From: Polaribacter marinaquae
GTDB taxonomy: Bacteria > Bacteroidota > Bacteroidia > Flavobacteriales > Flavobacteriaceae
Length of the DNA: 64,000 nucleotides
Direction of reading: 5' to 3'
Assembly (NCBI RefSeq): GCF_038019025.1
Contig: NZ_CP150496.1
Span: 2,124,001-2,188,000, forward strand
The translations under genes were made by a program, and so were the position numbers. The notes under the pieces are model-generated. The model did not search any database. It was given only the letters and a program-made list of their open reading frames with translations, and was not told where the DNA came from. Of the stretch, positions 3,759-55,099 are shown piece by piece; positions within the stretch are counted from its first letter, which is position 1; each line of letters opens with the position of its first letter.

Positions 3759-3840
3759 AAATTTGCAAAATGTTACAAAAACATTGTAAGTGTATTAAAA
3801 GAAACAAAGCATCAGTTTAGCTAAAGGTTGGTAAATAGTT

Positions 3841-3963
3841 GCGTTAGGGATTGAAACGACATCCTTTTTTGTGTCAGTTCGAGTTTTTTGTGAAGAAATG
3901 AACAAAAAGTATCTAGAACAAACATAAAAGATATAGTGTAAAGCCCGACCTTTAGGTAACGCC
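3841..3963. repeat. 123-bp structured repeat, copy 1 (between nirB and nirD)
   Basis: Begins GCGTTAGGGATTG and ends GGTAACGCC, so the ends pair (GCGTTA with TAACGC). Internally there are nested complementary segments (GGG with CCC; GTTC with GAAC; TTTTTGT with ACAAAAA), giving one long imperfect hairpin. A copy of identical length and roughly 90% identity is at 17721-17843. Sequences of this type (GATTGAA..GCATCC.. paired with GATATAGCG..AAAGCCCG) are dispersed in flavobacterial intergenic regions; the name is not known to me. No target-site duplication is visible. Confidence 0.8.
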
Positions 3964-17705: not shown

Positions 17706-17720
17706 ATCGATTTAACTATT

Positions 17721-17843
17721 GCGTTAGGGATTGAAGCGGCATCCTTTTTTATGCTAGTTCGAGTTTTTTGTGAAGTATGAACAAAAAGTTTCGAGAACAA
17801 ATAAAAAAGATATAGCGTAAAGCCCGACCTTTTAGGTAACGCC
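17721..17843. repeat. 123-bp structured repeat, copy 2 (between nrtB and nrtC)
   Basis: Same element as 3841-3963: GCGTTAGGGATTG start, GGTAACGCC end, and the same 123-bp length despite one compensating indel pair. Internal pairing is better than in copy 1: CTTTTTTAT pairs perfectly with ATAAAAAAG, TTTTTGT with ACAAAAA, and the ends GCGTTA with TAACGC. It begins 15 bp after the nrtB stop and ends 18 bp before the nrtC ATG. Confidence 0.82.
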
Positions 17844-30338: not shown

Positions 30339-31043
30339 TTATTGTCCTACTTCTTCTTTAGCTTCTTCTACCATCTTTTCGTTAGGTAAAATAGCAACAT
30401 TTACTCTTCTGTTTTTGGCTCTACCTTCTGCAGTTGTGTTATCATACTTTGGTTGCGTTTCACCGAACCATTGTGTTGTAAATCTACCTCTTTGTAATCC
30501 TTTTGCTATTAAATAATTAGTTACAGATTTTGCTCTTTTTTCAGATAAAGTCATATTGTAGCTGTCTCTACCAGAGCTATCTGTGTGCCCAACAACTAAG
30601 ATGTTTGTATCTGGAAACTCTGCAAAAACACTAGATAGTTTGTTTAAAGTTTCTTGTGATTTTGCATTGATATCATCTTTGTTAGTATCAAAATAAACAC
30701 CACTGTTTTCATCAAAAGTAACAACAATACCATTATCTACTCTTTCTACTTCCGCTCCAGGAATCTCTGTTTCAATTTGTTTTGCTTGATTATCCATTTT
30801 TTTACCAATTAGTATTCCGGCACCACCACCAACAACTCCACCAATTACAGCTCCTAGTTTACTATTTTTTCCGCTACCAACGTTATTACCAATAATGGCA
30901 CCAATTAAAGCACCTGTTGTGGTTCCTATTACAGCACCTTTTTGTTTGTTGTTTGTATTTTTAGTTGCTTCGCAACTTGTTAAACTTGCTGTTAATGCTA
31001 TTGCTACTGCAAATGCAGAAATTTTGTTCAATATATTTTTCAT
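30339..31043 (-). CDS. OmpA-like lipoprotein with glycine zipper
   Basis: 234 aa. Lipoprotein signal (LTASLTSCEATKN), then a glycine-zipper segment (~38-85, GAVIGTTTGALIGAIIGNNVG and GAVIGGVVGGGAGILIG), then an OmpA C-terminal peptidoglycan-binding domain (GVYFDTNKDDINAKSQETL, VVGHTDSSGRDSYN, LSEKRAKSVTNYL, GRAKNRRVNVAI). It resembles the YiaD/Pal-like family that links the outer membrane to the cell wall. The lipocalin-like gene ends 5 bp upstream, so they are co-transcribed. Confidence 0.92.
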   Translation of the reverse strand: MKNILNKISAFAVAIALTASLTSCEATKNTNNKQKGAVIGTTTGALIGAIIGNNVGSGKNSKLGAVIGGVVGGGAGILIGKKMDNQAKQIETEIPGAEVERVDNGIVVTFDENSGVYFDTNKDDINAKSQETLNKLSSVFAEFPDTNILVVGHTDSSGRDSYNMTLSEKRAKSVTNYLIAKGLQRGRFTTQWFGETQPKYDNTTAEGRAKNRRVNVAILPNEKMVEEAKEEVGQ

Positions 31044-31048
31044 AATTG

Positions 31049-31507
31049 TTATTGTTTTGTAAAGTTCATGTTTATAATAAACGGAGTTCCGTTTACCATT
31101 AAGTTTTGTTTCCAGGTCATTTTTGTTTCAGAAAGATTAGATAATTCTAACCTAAAACCAATATTGTTTTCGTTATTTTTTGGTTTTAATAAAAAGTCAT
31201 AATAACCTGATGTTTCATCAATTTCTTGAATTATAAAAATGAATTCTCTATCACCTGATTCACAACTCGAATTGTTTATTGTATAAATACCAGAATTGTT
31301 ATTTGGTACAAATTTCCAAGAACTTCCTTCTAAACATTCTTTTGTAGCATCGTTAAAAAGAGTAACATTATAATCGCCTGTTTTGCTGTATGTAATATTA
31401 TTTAAAGTCCAGTTTCCTTTTATGGTTTTTTCTTTACTTCTAACAGTTTTAGATGCTCCGCAAGAAACCAAAGAGGTTATAAATAATAGTATTAATAATT
31501 TTTTCAT
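31049..31507 (-). CDS. Lipocalin-like lipoprotein
   Basis: 152 aa. A short lipoprotein signal (MKKLLILLFITSLVSCGASK) is followed by a small beta-rich domain beginning IKGNWTLNNITYSKTG, the GxW start of bacterial lipocalin-like domains, and ending TKMTWKQNLMVNGTPFIIN. It lies 5 bp upstream of the OmpA-like gene. Its start codon is about 90 bp from the terminator of the last small-RNA-like unit, so readthrough from that array could enter this operon. Ligand unknown. Confidence 0.8.
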   Translation of the reverse strand: MKKLLILLFITSLVSCGASKTVRSKEKTIKGNWTLNNITYSKTGDYNVTLFNDATKECLEGSSWKFVPNNNSGIYTINNSSCESGDREFIFIIQEIDETSGYYDFLLKPKNNENNIGFRLELSNLSETKMTWKQNLMVNGTPFIINMNFTKQ

Positions 31508-31596
31508 GAGATATTTTATTTATTCTGATACAAATTAACAAACATGATGGTTGATGGCTTAACTCAAAAGAAAATAATATGAATTCATTTAAAAGC

Positions 31597-31713
31597 AAAA
31601 AGTCGTTAAAATCAAGAAAGTATGATTTTAACGACTATTAAATTAATCATATACATGATTAAATTAGATTGGGGGATTTTTCTTTGATTAGCAATTTTAG
31701 GGGGCGCTAACTG
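31597..31713 (-). ncRNA. Putative small RNA, unit 4 of a tandem array
   Basis: On the minus strand: -7 element TAAATTTG (31725-31718), then a hairpin with arms GTTAGC and GCTAAT and a loop containing CCCCC. A second C-rich stretch (TCCCCC) and a middle hairpin (TTAATCAT/ATGATTAA) follow. The terminator is a perfect 14-bp stem, AGTCGTTAAAATCA paired with TGATTTTAACGACT (31636-31601), followed by T5. Predicted length is ~115 nt. There is no open frame. Unit 4 differs from units 2 and 3 after the 5' hairpin. Confidence 0.6.
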
Positions 31714-31835
31714 ATTGCAAATTTACAACCTCAATACACATTTTTATGTACTTATTCTACTAATTGAAGATTGTGTATAGATAAAAAGTAAATTACTGTA
31801 GATTAGATGATAATTAGGGTTTTAATGTTTCTAGC

Positions 31836-31946
31836 AAAAAAAAATCGCTAAAACCAGTCAAGGTATTAGCGATTAATTTTGATTGTTAATTTTAGGGATT
31901 TTAACAACTAGTTTTTCTAGTTAGCAATTTTAGGGGGCGCTAACTG
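31836..31946 (-). ncRNA. Putative small RNA, unit 3 of a tandem array
   Basis: Minus strand: -7 element TAATTTTG (31958-31951). A 5' hairpin follows with perfect arms GTTAGC (31944-31939) and GCTAAC (31925-31920) and a loop holding CCCCC. The terminator stem is AATCGCTAA/TTAGCGATT (31874-31843), followed by at least seven T residues. Predicted length is ~110 nt. ATTGAG sits four bases upstream of the -7 element, as in units 1 and 4. Confidence 0.62.
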
Positions 31947-32068
31947 ATTGCAAAATTACAACCTCAATACACATTTTTATGTACTTATTCTATTAATTGA
32001 AGATTGTGTATAGATAAAAGGTAAATTACTGTAGATTAGATGATAATTTGGGTTTTAATTTTTTCAGC

Positions 32069-32187
32069 AAAAAAAAATCGTTAAAACCAGTCAAGGTATT
32101 AACGATTAATTTTCATTGTTAATTTATAGGGATATTAACAAAGTGATTTTTTTCACAGCGTTTGCATAATTAGGGGGATGCTAACGC
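32069..32187 (-). ncRNA. Putative small RNA, unit 2 of a tandem array
   Basis: Minus strand: -7 element TAAATTTG (32199-32192). The 5' hairpin is longer than in unit 3: GCGTTAGCAT (32187-32178) pairs with ATGCAAACGC (32167-32158) at 9 of 10 positions, with loop CCCCCTAATT. The terminator stem AATCGTTAA/TTAACGATT (32107-32076) has a U-A pair where unit 3 has C-G, a compensatory change, followed by a run of T. Predicted length is ~118 nt. Confidence 0.62.
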
Positions 32188-32306
32188 ATTACAAATTTAC
32201 AACTGTTTTAAATTTGAGTTTTTATATTTTCTATTAATTAATTGTAAAGGTTAGATGAATAACCATTTATTATAGATTAACTTTAAAAACTAAAAATTAA
32301 TTGTGT

Positions 32307-32394
32307 AAAAAAAATCGCTAAAACCAATAAAGGAATTAACGATTCGAAGTGATTATAATTTAAATTAGCTATAAGGCTAGGGAATCTTCTAACG
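32307..32394 (-). ncRNA. Putative small RNA, unit 1 of a tandem array (diverged)
   Basis: Minus strand: weak -7 element TACATTTT (32406-32399). The terminator 5' arm AATCGTTAA pairs with TTAGCGATT (32344-32313) using one U-G wobble, followed by T8. On the plus strand the same position would be an A-C mismatch, so the structure favours minus-strand transcription. The 5' part lacks the C5 loop (only TTCCCTAG), so this may be a decayed or distinct member. Confidence 0.4.
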
Positions 32395-32548
32395 GTTTAA
32401 AATGTATAATCTCAATGTTATATTGAGGGGTAAACAAAAATACATAGTTGTTTGTTTCTTTTTAAATTAAATCTATTATTCGATATAAAGGTATGCTAGA
32501 ATACGCTTAAGTGTCGATGAACTGAATTTACAAGCTAATCTATTAAAT

Positions 32549-32576
32549 AAAAAAAACCACTTCTAAGAGTGGTTTT
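32549..32576 (-). terminator. Terminator after the plug-domain protein gene
   Basis: AAAACCACT and AGTGGTTTT form a 9-bp stem around TCTAAG. On the minus strand a run of T residues follows. It separates the 798-aa gene from the small-RNA array. Confidence 0.85.
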
Positions 32577-32621
32577 AAATTATACTTATAATTTACCTTT
32601 TGTCGAGTTTTTAAATTTATT

Positions 32622-35018
32622 TTAATAGAATTTATAGTCCTTAAGACTAATTGTCTTTTTATCAAAAATAAACTCACCATCAGCAGATACACCTTCAAAG
32701 AACAAGGTGATTTTATCAGTTTTAATATTTTTAACATCTAAATTTAAGTTTCCATTTTCATCAATTTTATTCATAGGAAGCCAATCTACTACTCCGTATT
32801 TTTTATAAAAATTGTCTGTATATGAATTGTATTTAGGTATATAGAATTTTTTTGCTTTAGAAAATGTAATAGGAAATTTTATTTCTGTGGTTGTTTGTCT
32901 TTTTATTGGTTGGTAAAATTTCATAGGGTTGGTTACAATACGTATTACCCCATCATTATTTGTAAAACCTTCTCCAAATGAACTTCGATTAAATTCAACA
33001 TAATCCACTATACTCATTGACAAATTAAACAATATACTGTTGTCTAACAGCCTTTGCCCGTCTAAATAGATAATAGTACCTCCTAGGTTACCCTCACTAT
33101 ATGGACTTTGATAGCGAATACTACTACTTAAGCCTATGTCTAAAGTTCCAGTTATATAGTTTTTACGAGCATTAAAACTTAGACCGTAAATGTTTATAAA
33201 TTCTTCTAAGGTTAGGTAACTATCTTGTAATGTTGTAAATTTTACTTTTGCAAAACTTTCTTTTTTAATTTCTAAAATACGCTTTTCTTCTAAGTTTGTT
33301 TTAATTATAACTTCATCTAAAAAATCACCTGTATTTAAACTATTAAAAGTGGTTAGCTCAAAAGTGTTTTCTACTGCATAAAAATTATTGTTTGTCGTTA
33401 AATGCATTGCGCTTTTGTTTGTCTGAGGTATACTATTTGGAGAAAATTGTGGATACATTGGTGTTTTAAATAACTTTCCGTCTTTTTTTCTAATTGAAGA
33501 AATATATGCTTTCTCGTTATTAGTTGGGTAATAATTATTCAACACAAAAGCACTCTTAGAATCATCATTTAAAGAGATAAATTGTGGTGGGTTATTAGAC
33601 AAGGCATGAATTAAAAATTGTTTTTGACTATTTTTATCATCTTGAATATTAAACCTTACTGTAATTCCTTTCTCAAAAGAATGTGCAAAGTTGTTTTTTT
33701 GAGAGAATAATTTTCTCCAATTAAAGCTACTCCAGCCTTGGGTGATAAGCAAATTGTCTAAATCATATTTTTTTTGATTGTTGATATCTGTAAAATAATA
33801 TCCACCGTTTTGTAGGTATCCTTTTATGTAAGGTTTAATTAAAATATTAGAGATAATATTAGAATTTTTATTGTACGATTTTGTGTTTTCTGGCAATATC
33901 GAAATACTAACGTTGTTAAAATCTTTAAAGCCATTTTTAAAGTTGAAACTAAAGTTGTGTAGGGTGTCTTTAGAATTGTTTACAGAAGCATTTTCGATTG
34001 TATTAATATTAATATTTTTGTAATTAAAAAATAATCTTTCTGCAATGGGGTTGTTTTGCTCATCAAATAGTGTAAAAATAGTAACACCAGATTTTAAGTT
34101 TTTTAGCGCAATTTTTTTACTGATAACATTTTCTTTGTCAAACTGTATTTCAATTTTGGTTAATTTCGCTCTGTTTTGATAAGCAAGTATATAGGTTTTT
34201 CCTTTTAAGAATGGCAAAGTACCTTTGTTTGTAACACAAGAAATTATAACTTCGTTTTCATTGCTATTAAGCTGTATTATAATTCCGTTATTTTTTGAGT
34301 TAGTACCAAAATTGGTAATAAAATTTTTGGCATTTTCTAATTGAACTTTATACGTTTTATTTTTAATTGGTTTCATAGAAAAACGCCCAATGCCTAGTTC
34401 GTTTAATTTAAAAGAAGTGATAAAGTTGTTTTGTTGATCAAGCACACTCCCTTTTAAATTAGAAATACCGTAACCTAAACTATCTTTGGCAACAACGCCT
34501 AGCGTATTAATAACACCAGTAAGCAAGTGCCCGCTTTCTGGTAAAATTTGAAGATCTATTTTATCGCTTTTTTTAGTTTTAGCAACAACTTTTGTTTCTT
34601 GAGGATCAATAACGTCAAAGGAATCTGTAAAAAAGCTTTCCTTAGAGAAGTTAAGCATCCAATTTGTGTATGCCTTAAAAGTGTAGGTTCCAGTTTTAAA
34701 GTCTTTATCTACATCAAAGACACCGTTGGCAATACCATTTTCTACTTTTAGCAATTGTTTTTTAACAAGTTTTTTATTGCTATCATAAATTAGGCAGTAC
34801 AAATTAGAAGTACTTTCAGAGAGATTATTTTTGTATTTATCAAAACTATAAGCCGTAAAGCCAATATTTTCTCCTTTGATGTATATAGATTTGTTTAAGT
34901 GTGCATAGACTACTTCTTTAAAGTGTGAACTATTGTTTAAAAAAAGAGAGTCTATCGATTGTTTTTTTTGGGCTTGCAGGTTAAGGTTGATCTTGCTACT
35001 GTAAACAATAGGCAGCAA
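32622..35018 (-). CDS. MG2-like / TonB plug-like surface protein, probable frameshift at N terminus
   Basis: 798 aa in this frame from a TTG at 35018, but an in-frame TAA lies two codons upstream. A good signal peptide start (ATG at 35044, MKKHYLIKICCLLFTV) exists in another frame. The mature-looking segment NLNLQAQKKQSIDSLFLN, ending a signal in the flavobacterial way (AQ), is in the long frame, so a one-base indel between ~35044 and ~34990 is likely. Features: an alpha-2-macroglobulin-like MG2 start (VVYAHLNKSIYIKGENIGFTA), long beta-rich middle, and a TonB plug-like module near the end (GGTIIYLDGQRLLDNSILFN, VDYVEFNRSSFGEG). It lacks a barrel. Such proteins are common in Flavobacteriaceae and of unknown role. 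Confidence 0.7.
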   Translation of the reverse strand: MLPIVYSSKINLNLQAQKKQSIDSLFLNNSSHFKEVVYAHLNKSIYIKGENIGFTAYSFDKYKNNLSESTSNLYCLIYDSNKKLVKKQLLKVENGIANGVFDVDKDFKTGTYTFKAYTNWMLNFSKESFFTDSFDVIDPQETKVVAKTKKSDKIDLQILPESGHLLTGVINTLGVVAKDSLGYGISNLKGSVLDQQNNFITSFKLNELGIGRFSMKPIKNKTYKVQLENAKNFITNFGTNSKNNGIIIQLNSNENEVIISCVTNKGTLPFLKGKTYILAYQNRAKLTKIEIQFDKENVISKKIALKNLKSGVTIFTLFDEQNNPIAERLFFNYKNININTIENASVNNSKDTLHNFSFNFKNGFKDFNNVSISILPENTKSYNKNSNIISNILIKPYIKGYLQNGGYYFTDINNQKKYDLDNLLITQGWSSFNWRKLFSQKNNFAHSFEKGITVRFNIQDDKNSQKQFLIHALSNNPPQFISLNDDSKSAFVLNNYYPTNNEKAYISSIRKKDGKLFKTPMYPQFSPNSIPQTNKSAMHLTTNNNFYAVENTFELTTFNSLNTGDFLDEVIIKTNLEEKRILEIKKESFAKVKFTTLQDSYLTLEEFINIYGLSFNARKNYITGTLDIGLSSSIRYQSPYSEGNLGGTIIYLDGQRLLDNSILFNLSMSIVDYVEFNRSSFGEGFTNNDGVIRIVTNPMKFYQPIKRQTTTEIKFPITFSKAKKFYIPKYNSYTDNFYKKYGVVDWLPMNKIDENGNLNLDVKNIKTDKITLFFEGVSADGEFIFDKKTISLKDYKFY

Positions 35019-35160: not shown

Positions 35161-37215
35161 TTAACTCACTTGTTGTCCGTTTTTCACGTCCTTTTCAGGT
35201 TCAACAAAAGCTAGTTTTCCTTCTGGTGTGTCTGTCATTAAAATCATTCCTTGGCTTTCTACTCCTCTAATTTTTCTAGGAGTTAAGTTTACTAATACAG
35301 AAACTTGTTGACCAATAATATCTTCCGGAGAAAAACTTTCTGCAATACCAGAAACGATAGTTCTTGTGTCTATACCAACATCAACTTTAAGTTTTAAAAG
35401 TTTTTTAGTTTTTGCAACTTTTTCTGCTTCTAAAATGGTACCAATTCGAATATCTAATTTTGTAAAATCATCAAACTCTATGGTTTCCTTTTGCGGTTCT
35501 ACAACTTTATTTTCTTGTTCGTTGGCAATTTTTGTTGCTTCTAGCTTTGCTACTTGAGCTTCAATTGTTTTGTCTTCAATTTTAGAAAACAATAACTCTG
35601 CTTTGTTTATTTGATGTTCAGCAGGTAATAAAACATCTTTTGCTGTTATATCTTCCCAAGAAAGGTTTAAATCAAGATTTAAAATACCTTTTAATTTTGT
35701 TGATGTAAAAGGTAAAAATGGTTCTGAAACAACTGCTAAAGCTGCAGAAATTTGCAATGCCACATACATAATTGTTTGCACGCGTTCTGCATCAACCTTT
35801 ATAACTTTCCATGGCTCTTCATCGGCTAAATATTTGTTTCCAAGTCTTGCTAAGTTCATTAATTCTTGACTAGCTTCTCTAAACCTATATCTTTCTATAG
35901 ATTTACCAATAATATTAGGAAACTCTTTTACAGCAGCTAAAACATCTTCGTCAACTTCTGTATAATTCCCTGCAAGTGGCACTTGCCCTTGGTAGTATTT
36001 ATTTGTTAAAACAACAACTCTGTTTATAAAGTTACCAAAGATGGCAACTAATTCGCTATTATTTTTAGCCTGAAAATCTTTCCAAGTAAAATCATTGTCT
36101 TTACTTTCTGGCGCGTTTGCCGTTAATGTATAACGTAAAACATCTTGTTGATCTGGAAATTCTTCTAAATATTCGTGCAACCAAACTGCCCAATTTTTAG
36201 ACGTCGATAATTTATTTCCTTCTAAATTTAAAAATTCATTTGCTGGTACGTTGTCTGGTAAAATGTAATCTCCGTGTGCTTTTAACATACTCGGAAAAAT
36301 AATACAGTGAAAAACAATATTATCTTTACCAATAAAATGCACCAACTTGGTATCGTCTTTTTTCCAGTAATCTTCCCATTTTTTGCCTTCTCTTTCTGCC
36401 CATTCTTTGGTAGAAGAAATGTAACCAATGGGTGCGTCGAACCAAACGTATAAAACTTTACCATCTGCACCTTCTACAGGTACCGGAATTCCCCAATCTA
36501 AATCTCTAGTTACTGCTCTTGGTCTTAAACCATCATCTACCCAACTTTTTACTTGACCATAAACATTAGGTTTCCAATCTTTTTTATGTCCTTTTAAGAT
36601 CCATTCACGTAAAAATTCTTCGTGCTTATCTAAAGGTAAAAACCAGTGTTTTGTTTCTTTTAAAGAAGGCACATTACCAGTTATTGCAGATTTAGGATTG
36701 ATTAAATCTGTTGCGTTATGAGATGTACCACAATTTTCGCATTGATCACCATAACTTTCTTCGAAACCGCATTTTGGGCAAGTACCAATTACAAACCTAT
36801 CTGCTAAAAATTGGTTTGCTTCTGCGTCATATAATTGTTCAGAAACTTCTTCTACAAAATCTCCGTTTTCATACAATTTTGTAAAAAATTCTGATGCAGT
36901 TTTATGATGTATTTCTGATGAAGTTCTAGAATAATTATCAAAAGAAATACCAAAATCTGCAAAAGATTTTTTAATAATACCGTGGTATTTATCGATAATA
37001 TCTTGCGGAGAAACACCTTCTTTTTTTGCTCTCATTGGTATTGCAACACCATGTTCATCAGAACCACAGATGTATGCAACATCTTTACCTGTTAAACGTA
37101 AATAACGTGCGTAAATATCTGCTGGCACGTAAACACCTGCTAAATGCCCAATATGAATAGGACCATTAGTATAAGGTAAAGCTGCTGTAATTGTATATCT
37201 TTTTGGAGCACTCAT
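35161..37215 (-). CDS. metG: Methionyl-tRNA synthetase
   Basis: 684 aa, the size of the long bacterial MetRS with a C-terminal tRNA-binding domain. HIGH motif at 21-24 ([10 protein letters not shown]), zinc-binding cysteines in [17 protein letters not shown], and KMSKS motif replaced by KLSTS (~334-338). The C-terminal EMAP/Trbp111-like domain begins near 565 ([19 protein letters not shown]), after a charged linker. Charges tRNA(Met) in the cytoplasm. Monocistronic, with its own promoter and terminator. Divergent from the LD-carboxypeptidase gene across 104 bp. Confidence 0.98.
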
Positions 37216-37275: not shown

Positions 37276-37319
37276 CGAAAATAGATACATTTACATTCGC
37301 TAGTTATTTAAGCTATTAA

Positions 37320-38348
37320 ATGCTAAAAAAAAGATTCATTTTGAAGAAAACACAAGTACTTATTACAATTTTATTAGTTGTTTTTTCAACTATAAACTCA
37401 CAAGAAAAAAGCAATAATTTAGTTACACCACCATATTTAAAACAAGGAGATACGGTTGCAATTGTTGCGCCTGCAGGAATTTTAAGAGGAAGAAAAGCAA
37501 CAGTAGATAAAGCTAAAAAATTAGCAGAAAGTTGGGGTTTAAAAGTGGTTTTGGGTAAAAATATGTTCAACCAAAATAACCATTTTGCAGGAACTGATAA
37601 TGAGCGTTGTCAAGATTTTCAAGATGCATTAGATAATCCAAATATTAAAGCAATTTGGGCTGCTAGAGGTGGTTATGGTTCTGTTAGAATTTTAGATAAA
37701 TTAGATTTTAATAAATTTAAAAAAAATCCGAAGTGGATAATTGGTTATTCTGATATTACTGCATTTCATAATCATATTCATAATTTAGGCGTAGAAACGA
37801 TTCACGGAATGATGGCAACAAGTCTAGAAGAAAAGCCAGAAGAAATTATAGAAACAATTGCTAGTTTTAAAAAAGCACTTTTTGGTGAAGATGTAAAGTA
37901 TGTGTTTGCTGATAATGAGTTGAATAGAAAAAATAGATTAAATATTTCTGAATTAAAAGGACAATTAATTGGCGGAAACTTAGCAATATTAACATCTATG
38001 TTAGGTTCTAAAAGTCAATTAAATACAGAAGGAAAAATACTTTTTATTGAAGAAATTGGCGAGTATAAATATTCTATTGATAGAATGTTGCAAAGCTTAA
38101 AAAGAGCAGGTTATTTTAGAAAAGTAAAAGCTGTAATAGTAGGAGATATGTCTTTAATAAAAAAGAATTCTACAAAATGGGGAAGTTCTATAGAACAGCT
38201 AATTTTAGATGTAATACCACAAGATATACCTGTTGTATTTGATTTTCCTGCGGGTCACGAAGCCGACAATCGAGCATTAATTTTTGGTAGAAATGTAACG
38301 TTAGAATTAGATATGGAGAATTGTTTGTTAGATTTTTCTAAAAATTAA
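37320..38348 (+). CDS. LD-carboxypeptidase (peptidase family S66)
   Basis: 342 aa. A signal peptide (KKTQVLITILLVVFSTINSQ) suggests periplasmic location. Family S66 features are GDTVAIVAPAG, WAARGGYGSVRIL, the nucleophile Ser144 in WIIGYSDITAF, Glu in LFIEEIGEYKYSIDRML and the C-terminal His in FPAGHEADN. It trims the terminal D-Ala from tetrapeptides in murein recycling. The YraN gene starts 2 bp after its stop, so the two are co-transcribed. Confidence 0.92.
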   Translation: MLKKRFILKKTQVLITILLVVFSTINSQEKSNNLVTPPYLKQGDTVAIVAPAGILRGRKATVDKAKKLAESWGLKVVLGKNMFNQNNHFAGTDNERCQDFQDALDNPNIKAIWAARGGYGSVRILDKLDFNKFKKNPKWIIGYSDITAFHNHIHNLGVETIHGMMATSLEEKPEEIIETIASFKKALFGEDVKYVFADNELNRKNRLNISELKGQLIGGNLAILTSMLGSKSQLNTEGKILFIEEIGEYKYSIDRMLQSLKRAGYFRKVKAVIVGDMSLIKKNSTKWGSSIEQLILDVIPQDIPVVFDFPAGHEADNRALIFGRNVTLELDMENCLLDFSKN

Positions 38349-54229: not shown

Positions 54230-55099
54230 TTACTTTCCTTTATGCTTAAAATATCCTAATAATTTTTTTACATAATTTTCGTCTACTCTAGTATTTACAG
54301 CGCCTGCACCACTTCTTTTAAACATGTTTAAGTAATAATCTGTTAGTCTTAAAGCATTTGCTTTATAATTGGTTCTTACAGATTTTGATGCGGTATTTAT
54401 AGTTAAAACGTTACCTGTTTCTGCATCTAACATTGGCACCATTCCTAGATTAGGAATTTCTTCATCATGTTTATCAAAAACTCGAATACCAGTTAAATCG
54501 TGCTTTTTCGCAGCTATTTTTAGTGTTTTTTCATAATCATCATCCATAAAATCTGATAACATAAAAACAATAGCTCTTTTTTTAAGCACACTAGATAAAA
54601 ACTTTAATGCCGCTGCAATATTAGTTTTTTTACTTTTAGGTTGAAACTCGATTAATTCTCTAATAATTCGTAAAACATGACTTTTTCCTTTTTTAGGTGG
54701 AATGAAGAGTTCTATATCATCAGAAAATAAAATTAAACCAACTTTATCGTTGTTTTGAGTTGCAGAAAATGCAAGTGTTGCTGCAATTTCTGTAACTGTG
54801 TCTTTTTTAAATTGTGTTGAAGTACCAAAAAGTTCTGACCCAGATACGTCTACTAAAAGCATCATGGTTAGTTCTCTTTCTTCTTCAAAAACTTTAATAT
54901 ACGGTTCGTTGTATCTTGCAGTTACATTCCAATCAATTGCTCTAACATCATCACCAAATTGATATTGGCGAACTTCAGAAAAAGTCATACCACGCCCTTT
55001 GAAAGAAGAATGGTATTCTCCGCCAAAAATATCATTAGACAAACGCTTTGTCTTAATTTCTATTTTACGAACTTTTTTAAGTATTTCTTTTGTATCCAT
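54230..55099 (-). CDS. DUF58 domain protein of the Bat operon
   Basis: 289 aa, no signal peptide. Central DUF58 hallmark: VRQYQFGDDVRAIDWNVTAR followed by the VWA-like LLVDVSGSELFG, which keeps D-X-S-X-S. Later segments (GLILFSDDIELFIPPKKGKS, IVFMLSDFMDDDYEK) complete a VWA-like fold. It probably couples the MoxR ATPase (67 bp upstream) to the membrane VWA proteins BatA and BatB. Confidence 0.93.
   Translation of the reverse strand: MDTKEILKKVRKIEIKTKRLSNDIFGGEYHSSFKGRGMTFSEVRQYQFGDDVRAIDWNVTARYNEPYIKVFEEERELTMMLLVDVSGSELFGTSTQFKKDTVTEIAATLAFSATQNNDKVGLILFSDDIELFIPPKKGKSHVLRIIRELIEFQPKSKKTNIAAALKFLSSVLKKRAIVFMLSDFMDDDYEKTLKIAAKKHDLTGIRVFDKHDEEIPNLGMVPMLDAETGNVLTINTASKSVRTNYKANALRLTDYYLNMFKRSGAGAVNTRVDENYVKKLLGYFKHKGK

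Follow-up and report, generated by a model that had tools for sequence, protein, structure and literature searches.

The sRNA LhrC of Listeria is encoded in five copies, and its UCCC sites, which are located in two loops and a linker, are described as binding to G-rich sequence ahead of the start codon (PMC4132741). The four-unit array of Polaribacter marinaquae reported here resembles LhrC1-5 of Listeria monocytogenes in being multicopy and in carrying redundant C-rich sites in loops or single-stranded parts (predicted structures in our case), and the two stem-loops described for LhrC1-5, including the terminator, were counted as a further likeness (PMC4132741). However, LhrC is described as blocking the Shine-Dalgarno region; flavobacterial mRNAs as a rule lack Shine-Dalgarno sites (PMC9723704), and hence, the usual target of LhrC is missing. 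No sequence relation between the array and LhrC was found, and the array differs in its longer C-runs (CCCC/CCCCC) and in a terminator loop without a C-run. Four sRNAs in a row are also described in Rhodobacter sphaeroides, namely the cuckoo RNAs CcsR1-4, which, unlike the array, are cut by RNase E from the ccaF1 co-transcript, with a 3' terminator (PMC10253847, PMC7866481). Each array unit, in contrast, has its own promoter box and terminator. The loops of CcsR1-4 are C-rich.

Within the same phylum, the RbpB-associated FopS family of Bacteroides thetaiotaomicron is likewise described as paralogous, multicopy and terminator-ended; its loci number 14, however, its 5' seed lacks structure and its partner is an RRM protein, RbpB, which carries an RRM_1 RNA-binding domain (PMC11697453). 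The array, by comparison, is tandem and has C-loop hairpins, and no RRM_1 protein was found in the genome (PF00076, no hits at E≤0.001, by a search that was positive in two of 14 control genomes, including a Bacteroides). Rfp18 of Flavobacterium psychrophilum, compared by description only, is a structured independent sRNA kept beyond the species and is predicted to act via one stem-loop on several mRNAs (PMC9723704). Flavo-1 RNA (RF01705) is another flavobacterial small RNA; unlike the array, to which it has no match, it is a single long hairpin with interruptions, and its alignment shows no loop with a C-run. Two Flavo-1 RNAs occur elsewhere in the window on the plus strand, at 3833-3954 and 17710-17833 (48.7 and 54.4 bits; cut-off, 42).

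The window, that is, the whole stretch of DNA analyzed, comprises 64,000 nucleotides of the 3.17-Mb, single-contig P. marinaquae genome (G000). On its minus strand, four tandem units (u1-u4, 31597-32442) lie within the 1.1 kb that separate an MG2-like gene (32622-35018) from a lipoprotein-ompA gene pair (31507-30339). Each unit has a box matching the flavobacterial sigma-A consensus -7 element, TAnnTTTG (PMC9723704), two C-runs and an intrinsic terminator. The features are as follows.

31718..31725, minus strand: -7 box of u1, TAAATTTG, read directly from the sequence
31597..31713, minus strand: unit u1, predicted sRNA of ~115 nt (fold, terminator scan, orthologues in BM10 and MAG-71); hairpin 1 with CCCCC loop (31704-31700), unpaired AUCCCCCAAU with C-run (31674-31670), middle hairpin, then terminator stem (31636-31601)
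31951..31958, minus strand: -7 box of u2, TAATTTTG, read directly from the sequence
31836..31946, minus strand: unit u2, predicted sRNA of ~110 nt (fold, match to relatives-only model R2); hairpin 1 (31945-31919) with loop CCCCCUAAAAU, hairpin 2 (31908-31882) with UCCCUA in its loop, terminator stem (31870-31845)
32192..32199, minus strand: -7 box of u3, TAAATTTG, read directly from the sequence
32069..32187, minus strand: unit u3, predicted sRNA of ~118 nt (fold, R2 match); hairpin 1 (32187-32158) with loop CCCCCUAAUU, hairpin 2 (32141-32116) with loop AUCCCUAUAA, terminator stem (32104-32079)
32435..32442, minus strand: -7 box of u4, TATTTTTG, perfect, replacing an earlier reading at 32406-32399
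32306..32433, minus strand: unit u4, predicted sRNA of ~128 nt (fold, identity to MAG-71); CCCC (32430-32427), UCCCUA, terminator stem (32344-32313)
32576-32553, minus strand: the MG2-like gene's own terminator
32622..35018, minus strand: MG2-like protein, 798 aa (MG2, 22.5 bits, below the Pfam cut-off of 32.8)
35161..37215, minus strand: metG, presumably encoding methionyl-tRNA synthetase (named from the sequence); landmark of the locus in the genus
31049..31507, minus strand: lipoprotein, 152 aa, downstream neighbour, in relatives sometimes absent from the locus
30339..31043, minus strand: OmpA-family protein after the lipoprotein (PF00691, 91.5 bits)

A preliminary description of this DNA had proposed a tandem array of small-RNA-like genes here, and its observation was confirmed and strengthened, with one promoter corrected. 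Direct reading found the boxes of u1, u2 and u3 where they had been placed. The weak u4 box proposed at 32406-32399 was replaced by the perfect TATTTTTG 4 nt ahead of CCCC, and u4 is a full unit; MAG-71, the nearest relative, has TAATTTTG...CCCCCC at this promoter position. In u1-u3, the box is followed by a 5' hairpin with a CCCCC loop and, ~110-120 nt on, by a terminator with a T-run; the arms of this hairpin differ between units yet still pair, as first described, except for one A.A mismatch in u3. UCCCUA is located in the second-hairpin loop of u2 and u3 and is present in u4, with the unpaired AUCCCCCAAU taking its place in u1. Also as first described, one terminator pair is C-G in u2, U-A in u3 and U-G in u4. 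No ORF of at least 60 aa was found inside the array, shorter frames having been checked by eye, and the earlier statement that the array has no open frame holds at that length.

Minimum-energy folds were compared with those of 200 dinucleotide shuffles. The z-scores were -7.53 for u1, -6.05 for u2 and -8.59 for u3, with none of the 200 shuffles as good in each case; u4 reached -4.32 from the start based on TATTTTTG and -3.11 from the start used previously. A strict terminator scan detected two sites in 31300-32700, versus 0.4 in shuffles, and within the array it recognized u1 only; a looser finder picked up u1-u3. The u4 terminator, which has internal mismatches, was read from its fold and resembles those of u2 and u3. 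Unit spacing is 233-241 nt, varying with the segment compared. The closest pair, u1 and u2, forms a direct repeat of 214 nt with 93% identity at a spacing of 233, and u2, u3 and u4 share direct repeats of 55 nt at 95% and 78%.

Comparison with close relatives showed that copy number differs within the species. A same-species genome (G134, whose locus is as in Polaribacter sp. BM10) has three units: u4, a hybrid with the first hairpin of u3 and the second hairpin and terminator of u2, and u1. The hybrid is what unequal recombination between u3 and u2, in either direction, would leave. Polaribacter MAG-71 (G067) has four units, and one alignment of the two arrays gave identities of 80-92% for the units, 69-78% for the spacers and 84% for the lipoprotein leader. 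Flanks kept around stems that are not, the pattern named beforehand as speaking against an RNA family, was thus looked for and the opposite was seen. Aligned singly, u1, u4 and u3 were 78%, 85% and 81% identical to MAG-71, versus 71%, 69% and 67% for the 100 nt upstream of each (u4 reaches 92% in the array alignment and 85% alone). Among five full-length units, 94.7% of helix cells pair, versus 25-42% with the partners slid, and double changes occur at three pairs, of which hairpin 1 has two and the terminator one.

Units were also found at the same spot in other species. In other Polaribacter, gaps upstream of lipoprotein orthologues contain short terminator-ended units with CCCC(C). Units lie downstream of metG, and often also of a gene that we take to be deacetylase-like (named from its sequence) and of the MG2-like gene, in 22 of 69 Polaribacter genomes, a fraction that gives no prevalence, as the 69 are non-random and were partly picked for having hits. 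The 69 comprise nine genomes seen earlier and 60 others, of which 59 came from the top of a metG list, skipping genomes already seen and G111, G031 and G130, and one (G013) was chosen by lipoprotein position. The 22 consist of 12 genomes identified by a C-motif (defined below), seven more (G164, G015, G032, G059, G074, G083 and G179) and the array genomes G000, G134 and G067. The G164 unit was missed by the terminator finder and added by hand, and the units of G137 and G107 were admitted because of where they lie and because each has a C-run, a -7 box and a terminator, with the hairpins judged by eye. Two doubtful cases were kept outside both these 22 genomes and the 21 units used for promoter counts: G004, which has CCTC only, and G127, whose fold is no better than shuffles (z -0.15). 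In the relative G186 (L052), the terminator is present and the C-run absent. Most of the 60 fetched metG regions had no detectable unit. G009 (L215) has two separate C-run terminator units, 1830 and 3032 nt after metG, one on either side of the deacetylase-like gene.

Structural detail is shared over some of these distances. G063 and G100 have the two-hairpin plan of u2, namely TATTAGCA[ATGCCCCCATAAATG]TGCTAAATA, GTTAAAA[GGTTCCCTAAGAA]TTTTAAC and the terminator, the second hairpin in G063 being our own reading since RNAfold on that isolated stretch favours another pairing. The second-hairpin loop of u3, AUCCCUAUAA, recurs letter-perfect in G061 and G034. C-runs vary in length, and lie outside a loop in the second run of u1 and in u4, G074b and G066.

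The association of C-runs and terminators was counted with a C-motif defined as CCCC or CCCTA within 110 nt of noncoding DNA upstream of a terminator. In the 60 regions fetched around and behind metG, 14 of 88 intergenic sense terminators had this motif. The control, 464 kb of the own genome without the array, gave 4 of 183 terminators with both strands counted (Fisher p = 6e-5; ORF masks differed slightly, at 90 aa for the metG regions and 100 aa for the control). Thirteen of the 14 were at the locus, in 12 genomes; the other, an off-locus terminator of G117 lying 5563 nt from metG, was excluded from the locus units. Of 21 units in relatives, 17 have a single TAnnTTTG in the 200 nt preceding the terminator, at a distance of 60-109 nt; among own-genome terminators, the box precedes 39 of 196 overall and 19 of the 81 whose upstream DNA is mostly noncoding. 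The 21 exclude units of the array genomes, and a box here is a consensus match rather than a mapped start. The exact box is missing in G015, G032, G083 and G164.

Copy number that shifts within a species, together with many genomes that have no units, would also be expected of a terminator-bearing intergenic segment duplicated in tandem with no function. We assign this explanation a very small probability, given the covariation, the conservation of units above spacers, and the C-run and -7 box kept at the locus in relatives. The proposal that the array is a multicopy small-RNA family arising by duplication is instead supported by covarying stems, by units better conserved than spacers, by relatives at the same locus and by the change in copy number within the species. 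The sequence shows the architecture of the units, their covariation, their conserved position and a tandem duplication in which copies were lost or gained, and it is very likely that these units represent a real RNA family, of which several relatives keep versions at one chromosomal spot.

Covariance models, which had been suggested previously, were built from the array only (R1), from the units of four relatives with no window sequence (R2) and from the 16 units matched by R2 (R3). With strict filters, R1 matched three of 166 genus genomes at E≤0.01, its own included; with filters off, it detected the units of G063, G100, G061, G034 and G074 at E 1.1e-4 to 9.7e-4 in 79 kb, where its best match off any unit was at E 0.0031. 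Conversely, R2 found only u2 at E≤0.05 in the own genome (E 0.0055), and over 203 kb of fetched loci it detected u2 (E 3.5e-4) and u3 (E 0.018). The array model thus detects distant Polaribacter units, and the relatives-only model detects two of the array. By R2, u1 (E 0.12) and u4 (E 0.23) do not stand out from a match at 54714-54802 in the window that is unrelated to them (E 0.1). Own-genome R1 matches scoring below the array, at 852177, 1977165 and 2248137, are not units. A weak R1 match (E 0.108) at G000:C1:170259-170377 on the minus strand (L087) has a UCCCUC stretch between two terminators.

Across the genus, R2 matched 18 of 166 genomes at E≤0.05 under strict filters. In 13 of the 18, the match was 0.1-5.5 kb downstream of metG on the strand of metG, adjoining metG, the deacetylase-like gene, the MG2-like gene or the lipoprotein; the five off-locus matches (G118, G158, G077, G006 and G082) resemble ordinary gene terminators lacking C-runs. 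In the 16 R2 units (E≤0.007, 15 of them distinct), the terminator helix was 97% paired, and six of 14 pairs were double-changed, giving 18 such cells; shuffles gave 3.9 (0 of 500) and slid partners 3 at most. These counts support rather than prove the structure, because the alignment was fitted to it and related sequences inflate them. Antisense model matches, which are probably terminator palindromes, were left uncounted. R3, run with strict filters on 397 Flavobacteriaceae genomes of 237 genera, returned the own genome only and nothing convincing outside Polaribacter, its matches in other genera (L251 and L252) being plain gene terminators. Strict filters lose weak matches, as R2 omitted units of G063, G100 and G009 that were found in fetched loci, and hence, confinement to Polaribacter is the present result, with absence elsewhere weakly tested.

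Sequence searches were less sensitive. BLASTN with one whole unit against 59 genomes, the own genome included, gave short matches in eight of the 58 others, six in the genus but away from the metG locus and two outside the genus, and missed G009, G015, G032 and G034, although each carries a unit; the family came to light through synteny. The suggested Rfam search gave the array no credible match: in Rfam 15, no family reached its gathering score there (LhrC and FopS/GibS included, if deposited in that release), and at E≤5, the only minus-strand match in the array was snoR104 (21 bits; cut-off, 40). The best sub-threshold match in the vicinity, STnc430 (E 0.0086, 32 bits versus 47), lies outside the array, at 32472-32586 on the plus strand.

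The array was originally linked to the envelope lipoprotein operon upstream of which it sits. As the units are on the same strand as the lipoprotein and directly upstream of it, they might be attenuators or leader structures acting in cis on the lipoprotein-ompA operon. However, each unit ends in its own terminator, that of u1 being ~90 nt ahead of the start codon; eight relatives (G066, G102, G061, G034, G131, G063, G100 and G120) have a unit with no lipoprotein beside it, and several have the lipoprotein without a unit. A cis role is very improbable on these grounds, and the operon is not a constant partner of the units. Likewise, metG serves as a landmark, and a functional link to it is not claimed. 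In the lipoprotein leader itself (window 31507-31560; L018-L033), a GTTNNTTTG-like element seems, by eye, to be kept in relatives ~20-40 nt before the ATG, probably as part of the lipoprotein's promoter region.

With high confidence, we regard the units as sRNA genes that would be expressed. Each RNA would be a sigma-A transcript of ~80-130 nt, closed by an intrinsic terminator, with one or two units at the metG locus in several species and amplification to three or four tandem copies in this species group. The conserved working part appears to be one or two C-rich stretches (CCCC[C]U/A, UCCCUA), often in hairpin loops of 5-15 nt, around which stems and terminators would drift by compensatory change. 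LhrC is the best-documented parallel that we checked, and trans-acting base pairing is therefore favoured: we see about an even chance that the units form a Polaribacter family of independently transcribed, trans-acting sRNAs with LhrC-like C-rich pairing and dosage by copy number. In such a family, redundant C-rich stretches would pair in trans, loop first, with G-rich stretches in a few mRNAs, and gene dosage would be set by the number of units.

The C-rich loops themselves stand as first described; the further idea that they bind G-rich mRNA sites generally received slightly negative evidence. In 244 sampled gene-start windows (~15% of the genome), three C-segments (u2 loop 1, u3 loop 1 and the single-stranded run of u1) were outperformed in mean pairing by 27, 30 and 30 of 30 shuffles, and the loop 2 segment by 21 of 30 letter-shuffled versions, which is no clear difference. 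The tenth-best duplexes were slightly stronger than those of shuffles (u2 loop 1, -10.9 versus -10.2; loop 2, -8.2 versus -7.5). The full complement TTAGGGGG occurs at eight genome sites, three of which are the array itself; of the remaining five, one is at 2264290 and four match positions that lie beneath long ORFs. Six nearby gene starts gave ordinary duplex energies with the four segments (-1.1 to -6.3 kcal/mol), and no targets common to several species were identified.

This lack of preference for gene starts and the rarity of the full complement are consistent with the main rival to trans-acting pairing, in which some RNA-binding protein, or Rho, would bind the C-loops and be titrated by the tandem copies, as CsrA is by CsrB/RsmY, though here with a C-rich motif. 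Such a decoy would fit a motif that occurs twice per RNA, often in loops, and is multiplied by tandem copies while the stems drift; C-loop hairpins near the starts of a few genes (G000:3101840 and 1583502) and leaders holding CCC more often than GGG (57 versus 36 occurrences in the 464-kb sample) point the same way. Nevertheless, the leaders, a sample that a small regulon would escape, showed no clear excess of CCCC (5 of 246, with GGGG in 3 of 246). C-loop hairpins outside the array were at shuffle level, with 7 versus 10.8 at a minimum stem length of 6, 4 versus 4.8 at 7 and 3 versus 2.3 at 8. With no RRM_1 protein found in the genome and no candidate protein, we consider a protein decoy unlikely.

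The loops may alternatively mimic the anti-Shine-Dalgarno sequence, with CCCC[C]U imitating the 3' tail of 16S rRNA and acting on the few Shine-Dalgarno-bearing mRNAs, rpsU among them, or on the pocket of the 30S subunit in which that tail is hidden. The anti-Shine-Dalgarno sequence of Bacteroidia is described as sequestered, and many Flavobacteriales rpsU genes as keeping an extended Shine-Dalgarno sequence (PMC9976891). The loops, however, read CCCCC and not CCUCC, and rpsU was not found in the DNA searched with a protein motif; we judge this mimicry very unlikely. A broader proposal, distinctly doubtful in our estimation, is that the genus-wide RNA would be selected almost only for C-loop display, as a dosage-tunable decoy rather than an mRNA-pairing sRNA, titrating a C-binding protein or the hidden anti-Shine-Dalgarno machinery of the ribosome in a phylum that rarely uses Shine-Dalgarno pairing. 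No decoy RNA of this kind in Bacteroidota appeared by title among the literature matches listed.

A generic genome-wide class of C-loop hairpins looked promising initially, with 25 sites of TTTG..CCCCTAA versus 7 in a backward control and 17 of CCCCWA..CCCYWA versus 8. This class was rejected because many sites lie under long ORFs and counts outside the array are at shuffle level; the C-motif was not seen as a general mRNA leader element in the leader sample either. Individual C-rich structures were noted elsewhere in the genome. At G000:C1:1915904-1915970 (L152, L160), two adjacent hairpins with CCCCUACA and CCCCUAA loops lie upstream of a response-regulator-like gene, with no terminator after them. 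Two duplicated secreted-protein-like genes, one read as 143 aa, are each directly followed by three C4 stretches and a terminator-like hairpin (G000:C1:36602-36643 and 37297-37337; L143, L144). A long near-perfect hairpin with an ACCCCUA loop precedes a gene for a large secreted-type protein (G000:C1:3101840-3101874; L158).

Small-RNA regulation in marine Flavobacteriia has been little described, and no title among the papers listed for Polaribacter concerned it. The units raise the question of what the partner of a C-loop is where mRNAs have no Shine-Dalgarno sites and no RRM protein was found. They also indicate that synteny can track an sRNA gene with drifting stems where sequence search fails. 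For marine Flavobacteriia, this yields a delimited family that has coordinates and covariance models and that varies naturally in copy number, with one or two units in several species, BM10 having three and P. marinaquae four.
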